Translations under genes and position numbers: made by a program
Part shown: positions 4,930 to 34,546 of the stretch, piece by piece
Layout: every line of letters starts with the position of its first letter
Numbering within the stretch: the stretch's first letter is position 1
Assembly (NCBI GenBank): GCA_024405015.1
Contig: JAKSPE010000001.1
Location: 124,001-188,000 of the forward strand
Source: Sphaerochaetaceae bacterium
GTDB taxonomy: Bacteria; Spirochaetota; Spirochaetia; Sphaerochaetales; Sphaerochaetaceae
Reading direction: 5' to 3'
DNA length: 64,000 bases
The notes under the pieces: model-generated
Databases searched by the model: none
What the model was told of the DNA's origin: nothing
Seen by the model: only the letters and a program-made list of their open reading frames with translations

Positions 4930-5589
4930 TCACGGTTTTTCAACGACAAGCATCCTTCTCTTGGCATCGAGCATTGGAACTTCATAGTCTATGGTGCCGC
5001 ACTTGAAAACACACGGTCTGTAGGCGTTTGCCACGTCAATCTCCTCGCGGATATTCTCCTCGCTGCTCTTGTAGGCAAAGATTCTTCCGCCAGGGACAAG
5101 GATGCGATCGAGATCTGAAATGATATCCTTAAACTGCCTGAAAGCCCTAAAAGTCACAACATCAAAGGAATCTTGTACCTCTGAAAGATCTTTCTGAACA
5201 ATGTGAACTCGCGCATTCATTCCCATCATGGCGACGGTGTTTCTCAAAAATCCAGCCCTTCTTCCCATGCGCTCGACAAGGGTGATATCCCACTGTGGAA
5301 ATGCGCTTGCAAGCACAAGACCAGGCAGTCCAGAGCCAGAGCCAAGGTCCGCCATTCTGAGTTTTCCGTCTGCAAGGTTTGCTTTCATCAGCGGAGCCGG
5401 TGCAAGGCAGTCCAGGATGTGTCTGACGACTAGGTCATAGCCCTGGGCATTCACAAGACCGTACTGCGGATTGAACAAGGTAATCTCGTCATACAGATGA
5501 ACAAGTGCCTTCACAAGGCTGTCGGTCAACAAAGTCGGGTCGATTGCAGAGATTCCCTGCTCCAAGGTCTTTCGAAGATTCTCTTCCAT
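4930..5589 (-). CDS. rsmG: 16S rRNA (guanine-N7)-methyltransferase RsmG
   Basis: SAM-dependent methyltransferase that modifies G527 of 16S rRNA (E. coli numbering). 219 aa, a normal length. Seen: SAM-binding motif I as ADLGSGSGLPGLVLA near residue 75, and a Rossmann-type core with the later VTFRAF segment. The start ATG at 5589 has AGGAAATGAC in front of it, overlapping the end of mnmG, and the mnmG stop is 1 bp upstream. The mnmE-mnmG-rsmG order is the classic trmE-gidA-gidB cluster, so the assignment is firm. Confidence 0.95.
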   Translation of the reverse strand: MEENLRKTLEQGISAIDPTLLTDSLVKALVHLYDEITLFNPQYGLVNAQGYDLVVRHILDCLAPAPLMKANLADGKLRMADLGSGSGLPGLVLASAFPQWDITLVERMGRRAGFLRNTVAMMGMNARVHIVQKDLSEVQDSFDVVTFRAFRQFKDIISDLDRILVPGGRIFAYKSSEENIREEIDVANAYRPCVFKCGTIDYEVPMLDAKRRMLVVEKP

Positions 5590-5590
5590 G

Positions 5591-7387
5591 TCATTTCCTC
5601 AGGTAAATCAGAAGCACAGTGATGTCACTGACTCTGACGCCGTTTATTCTTGATGCCTGACCGATTGACTCAGGGCGGATCATCTTGAGTTTCTCACGGG
5701 ACTCTGAGCTGATTCCCTCTACGGCATCGTAGTTGAAATCCTCAGGAATTTTGATGCCTTCCAGTTTGGTGAAGCGGTCGACCTCGCGGTCCTGGCGTTT
5801 GATGTAGCCGTCGTACTTGACCCGAAGCTCAAGCTGAAGCCTTGTGGACATCGGAAACGTGTTGATCTCAGGGATGCTCTGGGAAAGTTCATCCATGGTA
5901 ATTTCAGGATTCTTCAGAGCCTCCAGCGCATTCTTTCCACCAAAACCTCTGTGTCGGATGATATCCTGCAGACTTTCGATGCTCTCGATCTTACGACTCA
6001 GAGCCTCCATTCTGTCATCCTTGGCTAGACCCACCTCATAACCCTTTCTGGTGAGCCTTTCATCGGCAGTATCATGTCTGAGATTCAGGCGGTACTCTGC
6101 ACGGCTTGTGAACATGCGGTACGGCTCCTTGGTTCCCATGGTCACAAGGTCGTCGATGAGAACACCAATGTATGCTTCGGTTCTAGAAAGGACCAAAGGA
6201 TTTTCACCCTTGATCTTCTGGCATGCGTTGATTCCAGCCATCAGGCCCTGACAGGCAGCCTCTTCATAGCCGCTGGTACCGTTGGTCTGTCCGGCAACAA
6301 ACAGATTCTCAAGACGCTTGGTCTCAAGGGACGGTTTGAGCTGTATCGGATTCAGATAGTCATACTCAACCGCATAGGCAGGACGCATGATTGCAGCATG
6401 CTCAAGGCCTTCGATGGAGTGAATAATGTCATGCTGGACATCCTCTGGGAGTGAGGTGGAAAGTCCATTGAGATACATCTCCTGCGTTCCGATTCCCTCC
6501 GGCTCGACGAAGATCTGATGTCTTGGTCGGTCCGGGAAGCGAACCACCTTATCCTCGATGGATGGACAGTATCTTGGACCTTTTCCCACAATCTTTCCGC
6601 CATAGAGCGGAGACCTGTGCATGTTGTCTCGAATGACCTGATGTGTCTTCTCATTGGTATAGGTGATGTAGCAAGGAACCATCGGACGCTCAATCTTCTC
6701 GTGCATGAAACTGAACGGAACAATCTCGCTGTCGCCTTCCTGCTTTTCCATCTTGTCCAAGTCCAGACTGGAAAAACGAACTCTAGCAGGAGTACCCGTC
6801 TTGAGTCTTCCCACGTCAAAGCCCTTCTCTCGCAGGGCATCGCCAAGACCAATGGCAGCCTCTTCGCCAAGGCGTCCTGCACTGTGGTCATATTCACCAA
6901 TGAAGATCCTTCCGTTCATGAAGGTTCCGGTGGTCAGGACCACAGCCTTACTGGTGAATGTGATGTTTCGCTGGGTTCGCACGCCGCAGGCTTTTCTGCC
7001 GGCGCTGTCGGTCAGAATGTCTACAACTGTGTCCATGAAAAGCTCTAGGTTGTCCTGGGCCTCAAGCGTCTCCTTAGCAAGTCTGGAATAGGAGAACTTG
7101 TCAGCCTGGGCACGTGGTGCCTGAACGGCAGGACCGCGGCGTCTGTTGAGGATGCGGAACTGGATCATGCTCTGGTCAATCAGAAGTCCCATCTGGCCGC
7201 CGAGGGCATCCGTCTCACGGACGAGATTGCCTTTTGCAAGGCCTCCAACAGCAGGATTACAGGAAAGTCTTCCAATGGCATCAATGCTCTGAGTAACGAG
7301 CAATGTGCGAAAACCTATTCTTGCAGAGGCGAGACAGGCCTCTATTCCAGCATGTCCACCACCGATAACAATCACATCATAATCCAT
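5591..7387 (-). CDS. mnmG: tRNA uridine-5-carboxymethylaminomethyl modification enzyme MnmG
   Basis: FAD-dependent partner of MnmE; the complex installs the (carboxymethyl)aminomethyl group at C5 of wobble U34 in tRNA. 598 aa, slightly shorter than the usual ~620-630. Seen: N-terminal dinucleotide-binding GGGHAGIEACLA, the conserved CNPAVGGLAKG segment and the EEAACQGLMAGINA motif with its conserved Cys. The start ATG at 7387 is 1 bp after the mnmE stop, with AGGAAAATGAT as ribosome-binding site inside the mnmE end. It is translationally tied to mnmE and rsmG. Confidence 0.96.
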   Translation of the reverse strand: MDYDVIVIGGGHAGIEACLASARIGFRTLLVTQSIDAIGRLSCNPAVGGLAKGNLVRETDALGGQMGLLIDQSMIQFRILNRRRGPAVQAPRAQADKFSYSRLAKETLEAQDNLELFMDTVVDILTDSAGRKACGVRTQRNITFTSKAVVLTTGTFMNGRIFIGEYDHSAGRLGEEAAIGLGDALREKGFDVGRLKTGTPARVRFSSLDLDKMEKQEGDSEIVPFSFMHEKIERPMVPCYITYTNEKTHQVIRDNMHRSPLYGGKIVGKGPRYCPSIEDKVVRFPDRPRHQIFVEPEGIGTQEMYLNGLSTSLPEDVQHDIIHSIEGLEHAAIMRPAYAVEYDYLNPIQLKPSLETKRLENLFVAGQTNGTSGYEEAACQGLMAGINACQKIKGENPLVLSRTEAYIGVLIDDLVTMGTKEPYRMFTSRAEYRLNLRHDTADERLTRKGYEVGLAKDDRMEALSRKIESIESLQDIIRHRGFGGKNALEALKNPEITMDELSQSIPEINTFPMSTRLQLELRVKYDGYIKRQDREVDRFTKLEGIKIPEDFNYDAVEGISSESREKLKMIRPESIGQASRINGVRVSDITVLLIYLRK

Positions 7388-30053: not shown

Positions 30054-30086
30054 AAAAAGGCTGTCACCTTTCTTGGTAACAGCCTT
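30054..30086 (-). terminator. Intrinsic terminator after the UPF0210 gene
   Basis: Minus strand: AAGGCTGTTACC, loop AAGAAA, GGTGACAGCCTT (30086-30057) and then TTT. Stem of 12 with one mismatch. Confidence 0.82.
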
Positions 30087-30097
30087 GGTACTTCGTT

Positions 30098-31462
30098 TTA
30101 GTTCTTGAAGCTATGGACAGGAGCCGGAATTCGTCCACCCCGTGAAATGAAACCCTCACAGGAGTATTCATTTACCTTCATGATAGGACCACTACCAAGA
30201 AGACCTCCGAATTCAGCAGTCTCTCCGACATCCTTTCCTTCAACAGGAATGATTCTGACAGCAGTTGTCTTCTGGTTGATCATACCGATTGCCATCTCAT
30301 CTGCAATGATGCCGGAGATGGTGGATGCGGTAGTCTTTCCAGGAATTGCAATCATATCAAGACCAACAGAACAGACACATGTCATGGCCTCAAGTTTCTC
30401 AAGAGTGAGACAACCACATCTTGCAGAGTCAATCATGCCATGGTCCTCGGAAACAGGAATGAAAGCACCGGAAAGGCCTCCAACATAGCTGGATGCCATG
30501 ATTCCACCCTTTTTGACCTGATCGTTGAGAAGAGCGAGAGCAGCTGTGGTACCCGGACATCCGACCTTCTCAAGGCCCATGGACTCCAGAATCTCAGCAA
30601 TGGAATCTCCAACTGCTGGAGTTGGTGCAAGTGAAAGGTCAACGATTCCGTATGGAACACCAAGTCTTCTAGAAGCTTCCTGAGCGACGAGCTGACCAAG
30701 TCTTGTGACCTTGAATGCTGTCTTTTTGATGGTGTCACAAAGTTCGCCAAAAGGCTTACCCTTGACGCCCTGGATTGCATGATTGATGACACCAGGACCA
30801 GAGACACCAACGTTGATGACGTTGTCAGCCTCTGTCACACCAAGGAATGCACCTGCCATGAACGGGTTGTCATCTGGAGCGTTGCACAGAACAACAAGTT
30901 TTGCACAACCAAGAGAATCACGGTCTGCTGTAAGCTTTGCTGTCTCCTTGATGATTTCTCCCATGAGTTTTACGGCATCCATGTTGATACCGGTCTTTGT
31001 GGAACCGAGATTGACGGAAGAGCAGACGTTCTCTGTACAGGCAAGAGCCTCTGGAATGGAACGGATGAGAAGCTCTTCAGACTTTGTCATTCCCTTTGCA
31101 GGAATTGCAGAGAAACCGCCAAGGAAGTTGACGCCAACTTCATGTGCAGCCTCATCAAGGGTCTTTGCGATTCTCACATAATCAGCGGTTGTCTTACAGG
31201 CGGAAGCACCAATAAGACCAATTGGAGTGACGGAGATTCTCTTGTTCACAATTGGAACAGCGTACTCACGCTCAATCTCCTTACCAACCTTGACAAGGTC
31301 CTTTGCTGTTGTTGTGATGCGTCTGTAGATGTTGGCACACAAAGTGTCCATATCATCACTGATGCAATCCAAAAGGGAGATTCCCAATGTGATGGTTCTC
31401 ACATCGAGCTTCTCCTTCTCAATCATATTATTGGTTTCAATGACTTCGTTGATATTGATCAT
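30098..31462 (-). CDS. PFL-like family protein, UPF0210 (DUF711)
   Basis: 454 aa, typical for the family, which has a pyruvate-formate-lyase-like barrel but no proven reaction. Seen: conserved stretches [55 protein letters not shown] and [17 protein letters not shown]. It overlaps the upstream ACT-domain gene by 4 nt (ATGA). The UPF0237/UPF0210 pair is widely conserved, so a joint amino-acid-sensing or metabolic role is likely but not known. Confidence 0.93.
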
Positions 31463-31737
31463 ATTCTCTGCATGCTCTTGAAGATGTCTTCTCTCTGGAG
31501 TTTGATCTGGACACCGATTTCCTTGCCCAGTTCCTCAAGTTCCTGTGAGATTGCAAGGAACTCCTTCTTTGCTGCGGATGTATCAACAATCATCATCATG
31601 TTGAAATAGCCACTTACGATTGTCTGTGAGATATCTTCGATGTTTACATTCATCTGATAGAGGTATGTGCACACTCTTCCGATGATTCCAACCTGGTCTT
31701 TTCCTACGACGGTGATAATTGACTTACTCTTTTCCAT
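31459..31737 (-). CDS. ACT domain protein, UPF0237
   Basis: 92 aa, a single ACT domain. Seen: [21 protein letters not shown] at the N terminus, the typical ligand-binding loop, then [24 protein letters not shown] domains bind amino acids and regulate partners; the obvious partner is the UPF0210 protein encoded next, overlapping by 4 nt. The ATG at 31737 has GAGGTG upstream; an upstream in-frame start has no support. Confidence 0.93.
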
Positions 31738-31805
31738 AGAAACACCTCGATTGCGATAATACAGAATTGTGATAGGTAAAATCAACCCAATTGAGAAATT
31801 ACACC

Positions 31806-33209
31806 TCAGGAAAGCTCATCCAAAAGCGTGTAATAGCGGATTTTGTCCTCATTAGGCTCCACACCAAGAAGCTCGAAGAATTTCGCGCGATCAAACGGTC
31901 TTTCACAAGGAACGCCACCGTAGAGACCTGCCATGTTACGCTCAAGGCTTCTTATGCAGATTGCGATATCACGATAGCGGTCTGCAACCTGACAAGAGCC
32001 AAGGTCAATCAGACCCGTGATGCCATCACAGTTTGCAAGGATGTTCGGAAGACACAAGTCGCCATGGGAAAGCACAAGATCCTCCTCTGGTCGATTCTCT
32101 TCCAGCCACGTAAGCAGATCCGTCGGAGATGCAAAGCCATTCGGACCGAAAACAGAGGATGAGGTATCCACAAGGCCTTTTTCGACATTTAGCCTTGCCT
32201 TCTTCAAAAGAGAATCAAGCCCACCAGAAAAAGGACACTTGCTCTTATCTACAGCCCACAACATACGAAGAGCGGCAATTGCAGACTTATAGAGTCGGTT
32301 CTCATTTTTCAGGATGGCTTCATCACACAGCATCTTGCCTTTGACCTTTGACAAGAGAAGGTATGCCTTACTGCCATTTCGGACATAACCCAGGACCTCT
32401 GGAACCGGAAGCTTGCCATTAAGCCAAAGAAGACTTTCATATTCGCGTCTCTCCTCGTCCCCAATGTCACTGATCTTCATGACCATGTCATCAAACATAA
32501 GGACTCGAGAACTGGACATGCCGACTGTCACACAATCAAAGCTTTTTCGTTCAAGAAGGTCTGGCCGATGCTTTGCCGTCTCAAGCAGAGACTGGGCGAA
32601 ACGCCACCTTTCAATTTTCTTGCGATCACCGCTAAGAAGAACCTCTGGAACGCTTTTTCCCTCATAGGAAATCGGATGTGTGTACTGCGGATATTCCAAA
32701 AGGTCCGTCTCAAAGCTCTCATCTACGGTGGAGCTATCGCGAAGACTGCCCTTGAGAAGTCGAATGACACTATCGCAAACGACCATTGTGGCGAACTCAC
32801 CGCCGGTAAGGATGTAATCACCAATGGAGATCTGCTCATCAATCTGGTCTTCGATTCTGGCATCTACACCTTCGTAATGGCCGCAGATCATCACCAGATG
32901 ATCCAGTTTTGAAAGTTCATGAGCCTTTGCCTGGTTAAAGGTCTTTCCCTTTGGAGAAAGCAACACAACATGAGAGTCCGGCGTTCTGACGCTGGCAAGT
33001 GCCTTGGAAAGTGTATCGATGCGGATAATCATGCCCGGTCCACCGCCACATGGCGAGTCATCGATCTTTCGGAATGAGCCCTCTGCAAAGTCCTTGATAT
33101 CCACCGTCTCAAAATAGACAGAACCTTTTGCAATGGCACGTCTGACCACAGGTGTGGCCTTGAAACTGTCAAAGGTTTCCGGAAAGACGGACAGGACTGA
33201 GATTCTCAC
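31806..33209 (-). CDS. trmD: TrmD tRNA m1G37 methyltransferase fused to an aminoglycoside-phosphotransferase-like kinase
   Basis: 467 aa in one uninterrupted frame. Residues 1-~222 are a complete TrmD, the knotted methyltransferase for G37 of tRNA: ISVLSVFPETF, SPCGGGPGM (53-60), ICGHYEGVDAR (108-118), the knot GDYILTGGE (130-138) and the C-terminal RFAQSLLETAKHRPDLLER. Residues ~224-467 are a complete APH(3')-like kinase: Lys in VMKIS (245), catalytic loop HGDLCLPN (382-389), metal-binding IDLGS (401-405), VADRYRDIA. TrmD is normally ~230-250 aa, and I know of no standard fusion of this kind. GTG start with GAGG 7 nt upstream. It is not in an rpsP-rimM-trmD-rplS context. The kinase substrate could be an aminoglycoside, another small molecule or RNA; unknown. 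Confidence 0.9.
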   Translation of the reverse strand: MRISVLSVFPETFDSFKATPVVRRAIAKGSVYFETVDIKDFAEGSFRKIDDSPCGGGPGMIIRIDTLSKALASVRTPDSHVVLLSPKGKTFNQAKAHELSKLDHLVMICGHYEGVDARIEDQIDEQISIGDYILTGGEFATMVVCDSVIRLLKGSLRDSSTVDESFETDLLEYPQYTHPISYEGKSVPEVLLSGDRKKIERWRFAQSLLETAKHRPDLLERKSFDCVTVGMSSSRVLMFDDMVMKISDIGDEERREYESLLWLNGKLPVPEVLGYVRNGSKAYLLLSKVKGKMLCDEAILKNENRLYKSAIAALRMLWAVDKSKCPFSGGLDSLLKKARLNVEKGLVDTSSSVFGPNGFASPTDLLTWLEENRPEEDLVLSHGDLCLPNILANCDGITGLIDLGSCQVADRYRDIAICIRSLERNMAGLYGGVPCERPFDRAKFFELLGVEPNEDKIRYYTLLDELS

Positions 33210-33316
33210 AAACGTTCCTCCAATGGTCTTTGAAGTATATCAGCATTGCAAGAAGGGAGCAATCTTGTACACCTCCTCAGTTTTCTCGTACACTGGGATG
33301 GAGAGTTGAGGAAGCG

Positions 33317-34546
33317 ATGAAACTGATTTCACAATACAAGGGGCTTAGAAAAGAGATCTACGTGCTCTTCTTCGGAAGAATCGTCACCAGCCTGGGATCC
33401 ATGATCTGGCCGGTTCTGACGCTGATTCTCACCAGAAAGCTTGGCCTCAATGCCACGCAGGCAGCCCTTGTGACAGTCGGATCGGGAATCTTCTTCCTCC
33501 CTGCAAACATCATCGGCGGAAAGCTTGCTGATAAGTACAACAAGAAGATGATTATCGTCTATTGCGACATGATATCGATTGTGTTCTACCTCATCTCGGC
33601 ATTCATACCGCTTTCGCTGTTCACCATTGCGATTCTCATGTTCGCAGCAGCATGCCAAAGCATTGAGTATCCGGCATACAACACCTTGATTGCAGATCTG
33701 ACACTCACAAAGGATCGTGAGCGAGCATACTCCCTTACCTACCTTGGCATGAACATGGGCCTGGTTGCCGCACCGACGATTGCAGGAATCCTGTTCGAGA
33801 ACCATCTGAACCTTTCGTTTCTCATCAGCGGACTTTCCATCGCCATGTCCACCATCCTCATCTTCCTGAACATCAAGGACATCACACCGATTCAGGAGGA
33901 AGGAGCACAAGGTGAGTATCAGGCAAGCAAAAGTGGCGAGAGCCTTTTTGCGATACTCAAGCAGAACAAGCTGATTGCCCTCTATGCACTGATTATGACA
34001 CTTTACTGGGGAGCCTACGGCCAGTATGGATACCTCATGCCACTGGACATGGGACAGATCCATGGAGATCGAGGCGCCCTGATTTATGGCAGCATCTCAA
34101 GTCTGAACAGCATCACGGTAGTCCTTTTCACCCCGATTCTCACCAGAGTCTTCCGCAACATGGTGTCGACCAAGAAGTGCATCACAGGCCAGAGTCTTCT
34201 CATGGTCGGTTTCATCTGTTTTCTGAGTTTTCGAGGAATTGTCCCAGCCTACTACATTGCCATGTTCCTGTTCACTTTGGGCGAAATCATGTCCACTTTC
34301 GTCGAAGGACCATACCTGACACAGAGAATCCCAGCAAGCCACAGAGGACGCATCAATGGCGTCATGTCCATCGCTCAAAGCGTACTTCAGGGAATCATGA
34401 CTCTTGTGGTCGGTGGACTCTACGACAAGGCAAGTCCTGCCATCGCATGGTCCTTTGTTCTTGTGATTCTAGCAGTTGCCATCTGTCTGACGCTGGTCCT
34501 CATCCCAACAGACAAAAGACGCTACCCAGCTCTTTACACCAAGTAG
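33317..34546 (+). CDS. Major facilitator superfamily transporter, drug-efflux type
   Basis: 409 aa, twelve hydrophobic segments. Seen: the loop 2-3 motif GGKLADKYNKKMII (MFS motif A), and a second related loop, SHRGRINGVMS, in the C-terminal half. This is the 12-TMS multidrug/macrolide exporter type by general look; the substrate is unknown. GAGG lies 5 nt before the ATG at 33317, which is chosen over an upstream in-frame start. It is divergent from the trmD-kinase fusion. Confidence 0.85.
   Translation: MKLISQYKGLRKEIYVLFFGRIVTSLGSMIWPVLTLILTRKLGLNATQAALVTVGSGIFFLPANIIGGKLADKYNKKMIIVYCDMISIVFYLISAFIPLSLFTIAILMFAAACQSIEYPAYNTLIADLTLTKDRERAYSLTYLGMNMGLVAAPTIAGILFENHLNLSFLISGLSIAMSTILIFLNIKDITPIQEEGAQGEYQASKSGESLFAILKQNKLIALYALIMTLYWGAYGQYGYLMPLDMGQIHGDRGALIYGSISSLNSITVVLFTPILTRVFRNMVSTKKCITGQSLLMVGFICFLSFRGIVPAYYIAMFLFTLGEIMSTFVEGPYLTQRIPASHRGRINGVMSIAQSVLQGIMTLVVGGLYDKASPAIAWSFVLVILAVAICLTLVLIPTDKRRYPALYTK

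Follow-up and report, generated by a model that had tools for sequence, protein, structure and literature searches.

TrmD, the tRNA (guanosine(37)-N1)-methyltransferase, occurs in nearly all bacteria, is strict in its choice of substrate and serves as an antibiotic target. The enzyme needs G36 in its tRNA, and in E. coli base 37 is usually unmodified behind C36 anticodons (PMC11199890, PMC5372744); the roles of the catalytic residues Arg154 and Asp169 and of Asp50, which reads G36, have also been described (PMC5372744). The known fusion of TrmD is TrmD-Tm1570, in which the TrmD half remains a methyltransferase and the extra C-terminal domain is a second SPOUT methyltransferase (8b1n; PMC11187310). 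For the aminoglycoside phosphotransferase APH(3')-IIIa, the acidic loop residues E157/E160 and the C-terminal residues E262/F264 are the aminoglycoside-binding elements (PMC3691515). The window, which is the whole 64,000-nucleotide stretch of DNA that was analysed and comes from an 85%-complete MAG of a gut bacterium, contains a gene that brings these two families together: in one open reading frame a complete TrmD is followed by a complete APH(3')-type kinase (Table 1), as the original prediction had read it, and the frame lies on the minus strand. The new protein shares with TrmD-Tm1570 the addition of a C-terminal domain to TrmD and differs from it in that the partner has a kinase fold. No paper on a TrmD-APH fusion was found among open-access papers, which agrees with the earlier impression that the fusion was not previously known.

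The frame runs from 33209 to 31806 through 467 codons with zero internal stops. In Pfam, residues 24-216 of the protein match tRNA_m1G_MT (E 1e-51) and residues 241-423 match APH (E 4e-20), and the NCBIfam cut-offs are passed both for the two TrmD equivalogs (272.5 against 220 bits and 264.1 against 195 bits) and for the APH(3') equivalog NF033068 (216.8 against 205). An AlphaFold model built with 41 aligned sequences contains both folds at a pLDDT of 91.6, which falls to 62 in the block 221-230, and a Foldseek search with this model, of the kind proposed with the original prediction, finds structures of TrmD as well as APH(3')-IIIa (1j7l). According to the model and the alignment the junction lies between the C-terminal helix of TrmD and the nucleotide-binding loop of APH, where TrmD would have its last helix and a free APH(3') its first. 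The fusion is real, and a frameshift or assembly artefact was ruled out as its source because fused copies are present in 17 other genomes belonging to three genera (g1, g11, g16); neither an artefactual joining frame nor relatives that encode the halves as two separate proteins, the two objections foreseen at the outset, was found.

Table 1. Features of the fusion gene and its neighbours in the window
Feature	Position	Strand	Remarks	Evidence
trmD2-aph fusion ORF	31806..33209	-	467 aa, GTG start, stop 31806-31808	
Shine-Dalgarno GGAGG	33217..33221	-	7 nt upstream of the GTG of the fusion	Sequence
TrmD2 methyltransferase domain	32550..33209	-	Residues 1-220	Pfam/NCBIfam, residue table, tree
Fusion junction	32517..32549	-	Residues 221-231, low-confidence linker	AlphaFold, alignment
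APH(3')-type kinase domain	31809..32540	-	Residues 224-467	Profiles, alignment, Foldseek
Lys245	32475..32477	-	K44 of APH(3')-IIIa	Alignment
HGD 382-384	32058..32066	-	Catalytic Asp384 is D190 of APH(3')-IIIa	Alignment
Asp402	32004..32006	-	Metal-binding D208 of APH(3')-IIIa	Alignment
ACT_6-domain protein, ~92 aa	31459..31737	-	Co-directional, downstream of the fusion	
DUF711 (PFL-like) protein	30098..31462	-	Overlaps the ACT gene	
MFS transporter	33230..34546	+	Divergent from the fusion; neighbour not conserved	

The ACT_6 and DUF711 genes occupy 30098-31785 as a same-strand pair immediately 3' of the fusion. The ACT_6 gene adjoins the fusion in five genomes of the same genus, and a terminator-like hairpin follows the DUF711 gene at 30057-30086; the DUF711 gene closes the likely operon. 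On the other side, the divergent MFS exporter to which the original prediction drew attention is present as described, but its recurrence beside TrmD2 is limited to one other locus, where a related MFS transporter gene stands next to the unfused TrmD2 of another genus (L083, G017).

The methyltransferase half belongs to a second TrmD, here called TrmD2. In samples of 139 genomes from the family and 395 genomes from the class, 31 genomes carry TrmD2; they belong to five genera (g1, g8, g11, g16 and g19), and no TrmD2 was found outside those genera among the 395. It is fused in 18 of the 31, the window copy included (g1, g11, g16), and unfused in 13 (g8, g11, g16, g19), in which the kinase is absent and is not encoded as a separate neighbouring gene, so that the two halves are not always joined, as had been asked of relatives. 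Two of the fused copies are incomplete: the contig of G002 stops just beyond the junction, and the copy of G005 has its N-terminus cut off. A canonical trmD is also present in all 20 carriers that are at least 90% complete, and in the carriers without one, the window MAG among them, rplS is absent or lies at a contig end. The canonical gene adjoins rplS where this was checked and TrmD2 lies away from it, so TrmD2 is not the single housekeeping gene beside rplS; a housekeeping TrmD whose canonical counterpart had been lost was ruled out, given that the canonical gene coexists wherever the locus is assembled. The fusion is thus a supernumerary paralogue. In a tree of the 30 TrmD2 domains alignable over their length, TrmD2 forms one clade with support of 100/100, and identity within it is 55-63%. 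The sequences thus show that the gene encodes a supernumerary, family-restricted TrmD confined to five genera of one spirochaete-like family. The unfused copies are nested inside the fused ones in the tree, but at an AU p of 0.167 the tree does not separate one fusion from kinase loss in the unfused copies. Two outside origins were also considered. A recent mobile resistance gene was rejected, no full-length match being found in plasmid, phage and viral collections, and no donor outside the family was found, TrmD matches in 391 genomes of a clostridial class reaching only 46-51% identity.

TrmD2 passes for a TrmD (TIGR00088/PF01746) in fold and in its key residues. The equivalents of Asp50, Arg154, Tyr115, Glu116 and Asp/Glu169 are intact in the METHYLTRANSFERASE half, and across the 30 aligned TrmD2 sequences Arg154 is invariant as R, position 169 as E and Asp50 as D, with the GGG loop present. 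TrmD2 differs from TrmD, apart from its second-copy status and the C-terminal extension of its fused members, in the motif DRH (E. coli 44-46, near Asp50), which is replaced in 30/30 aligned sequences, by Gly-Ser/Cys-Phe in nearly all of them and by G-S-F in the window copy. These numbers follow the E. coli TrmD sequence. The change of Asp169 to Glu was ruled out as a peculiarity of TrmD2, as Glu is also standard in the canonical TrmD of the family. The intact catalytic residues together with the replaced DRH suggest that TrmD2 is probably active as a methyltransferase with an altered anticodon-loop pocket. The canonical TrmD of one g16 genome (G025, L022), which sits on a long branch, is also without DRH and has IGAYNK.

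The kinase-fold tails of the fused proteins form one clade (support 93/94) apart from the free APH(3') enzymes of Clostridia and g16, which fits a single fusion event. Homology and fold relate the tail of the window copy clearly to APH(3'), and the claim that Lys, HGD and the metal-binding Asp are intact holds for the window copy, which in the alignment to APH(3')-IIIa also retains Asn389 (N195) and the equivalents of R226, D261 and E262. Given these residues and the equivalog match, it is conceivable that an aminoglycoside is the substrate of the C-terminal half and that the fusion to TrmD places or stabilises the kinase. However, this is unlikely for four reasons: first, the acidic aminoglycoside-binding loop of the window copy is lost (E157→S, E160→G), as is the terminal Phe (F264→S), leaving only D261/E262. 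Second, Lys-Glu, HGDxxxxN and the metal Asp are found together only in the window copy (G000) and in G004, and in the latter E262 is replaced by K. Third, most relatives are trimmed or pseudokinases: G005, G006, G007 and G009 have kept HGD and are missing the loop region and the C-terminus, and among the eleven g11 and g16 proteins of form B, 11/11 have lost the Asp of HGD, 10/11 Lys and 8/11 the metal Asp, with the result that 15 of the 17 readable fused tails are without the catalytic Asp or without the aminoglycoside-binding region. Fourth, scores against the APH(3') model drop from 263 for a free clostridial enzyme to 217, 201, 127 and 107-56 along the fused series, whereas free APH(3') of the same family keep the acidic loop residues and LLDELF. 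With the kinase decayed, trimmed or absent among relatives, aminoglycoside phosphorylation is, to judge from the residues, not the conserved function of the fusion, and the suggestion that antibiotic phosphorylation is its point is not supported; the window copy may retain residual kinase activity. In practice, an APH(3') match inside a fusion, even one above the equivalog cut-off, should be kept out of counts of resistance genes. The free-standing APH(3') genes of g16 (L113-L116; G107, G081, G108, G080) are ~42% identical to the fused tail, have the acidic loop residues and the terminal LLDELF intact, and may be true resistance genes of this family.

The most likely history is a single acquisition of the APH(3') domain and its later erosion in steps: intact enzyme, enzyme deprived of the substrate-binding region, pseudokinase. 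Net charge is mostly -8 to +2 in the fused tails (-12 in G004), and the free APH(3') enzymes are more acidic at -9 to -17. In three close pairs of form-B proteins the C-terminal half has a pN/pS of 0.22-0.27 (Fisher p 1e-6 to 3e-9), close to the 0.17-0.22 of the TrmD half. Despite the loss of catalytic residues, the form-B tails are thus under purifying selection; they are being kept, probably for something other than kinase activity. The Foldseek list for a form-B model holds only TrmD-containing matches, its TrmD half and arrangement being less certain (pTM 0.57). A kinase fold that has been re-aimed at RNA, a nucleoside or a translation protein would account for the ATP-site residues of the g1 copies, which are preserved also in those from which the aminoglycoside region has been deleted, but it is very improbable, as no such phosphorylation would be expected of the eleven form-B copies and their domain is still under selection. 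The tail thus offers a graded natural series, within one fusion family, that leads from an intact resistance enzyme to a constrained pseudokinase.

The tRNA-Val(GAC) whose gene stands beside form-B TrmD2 is unusual: its anticodon loop reads TTGACGT, so that G37 follows C36. Family-wide pattern searches found G37 in all 26 TrmD2 carriers with a detectable tRNA-Val(GAC) gene and A37 in none, against 18 G37 and 63 A37 among non-carriers (Fisher p≈2e-13, kinship ignored); in g16 alone the corresponding G37/A37 counts are 8/0 for carriers and 6/24 for non-carriers (p 6e-5). Five carriers gave no tRNA-Val(GAC) match and are left out of the 26, and in the nearly complete carriers G064 and G066 no such gene was found with either pattern. 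Phylogeny-aware pairs on the canonical TrmD tree number 2-5 in the same direction and 0 in the opposite one, too few for significance. Among ~90 matches to a G37-tRNA pattern in 30 genomes, an apparent chance match in G078 being left aside, only tRNA-Val(GAC) has a base 36 other than G, and the other G37 tRNAs caught (His, Arg) all have G36. The converse association does not hold: 11 of the 18 G37 non-carriers are at least 90% complete, and G104 and G118 have the G37 tRNA and no TrmD2 at exactly the locus where their relatives carry TrmD2, so TrmD2 is not required for a G37 tRNA-Val(GAC). No TrmD2 remnants were found near the G37 tRNA of non-carriers by tblastn.

At 10 of the 11 form-B loci, TrmD2 and the tRNA-Val(GAC) gene are 60-3000 bp apart. 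These neighbourhoods are often common to relatives, and since the 10 loci reduce to about three independent sets, the linkage should be weighed as about three observations, not as ten. No linkage to the tRNA gene is seen for TrmD2 genes of form A or for those without a fusion. Canonical TrmD reads G36 and would not be expected to methylate the C36-G37 tRNA-Val(GAC) well; given that carriers have this tRNA, TrmD2 may be a helper m1G37 enzyme dedicated to it. The tail would then serve the methyltransferase mainly as a binding or structural module, making extra tRNA contacts, as a guess, or setting dimer geometry. Such a role would explain why carriers always have the G37 tRNA and why the form-B genes are linked to it, and the tRNA-related substrate raised in the original prediction fits best in this form, through methylation of an unusual tRNA and not through phosphorylation. 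It is suggested, with confidence just short of even, that TrmD2 is an active m1G37 methyltransferase which exists for the C36-G37 tRNA-Val(GAC), with a tail that is mainly a binding or structural module; the grade is kept there because the 18 G37 non-carriers and the conserved Asp50 stay unexplained.

The main rival to a dedicated enzyme is a redundant or condition-specific TrmD that acts on ordinary G36-G37 tRNAs, for example one insensitive to a natural TrmD inhibitor, with hitch-hiking and shared ancestry behind the link to the tRNA. tRNA genes are common insertion sites, and in g16 the tRNA-Val(GAC) locus of A37 non-carriers is orthologous to that of G37 carriers; TrmD2 has conserved Asp50 and every catalytic residue, and the 18 G37 genomes do without it. 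Nevertheless, this is somewhat less likely for two reasons: first, the form-A and unfused genes are not near the tRNA gene, yet their genomes have only G37. Second, several tRNA backbones carry G37 among tRNA-Val(GAC), and zero A37 carriers were found. Returning to the dedicated enzyme, a more far-reaching account can be put forward only tentatively: a second TrmD evolved for a C36-G37 valine tRNA outside the G36 rule, a former resistance kinase turned pseudokinase was recruited as its accessory module, and the genes of the enzyme and of the tRNA came to share a locus in several lineages. Among open-access papers, none was found that connects a second TrmD with a C36-G37 tRNA. If a second TrmD does track a rule-breaking tRNA, it would show a tRNA and its modification enzyme co-evolving, and the G36 requirement could be tested with natural variants.

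Further observations concern tRNA-Val(GAC) genes. At L166, a pair that by eye resembles a small PIN-domain toxin and an antitoxin lies at 4981-5632 between tRNA-Val(GAC) and a glycerate kinase gene, where the relatives G085 and G099 have TrmD2. In the g16 genome G113 (C50, C81, C41; L164, L165, L266), from which TrmD2 is absent, both the A37 and the G37 patterns match, which may reflect a transition state or else contamination. Finally, G159 (L168), from a genus without TrmD2, has two G37 tRNA-Val(GAC) genes 2.4 kb apart.
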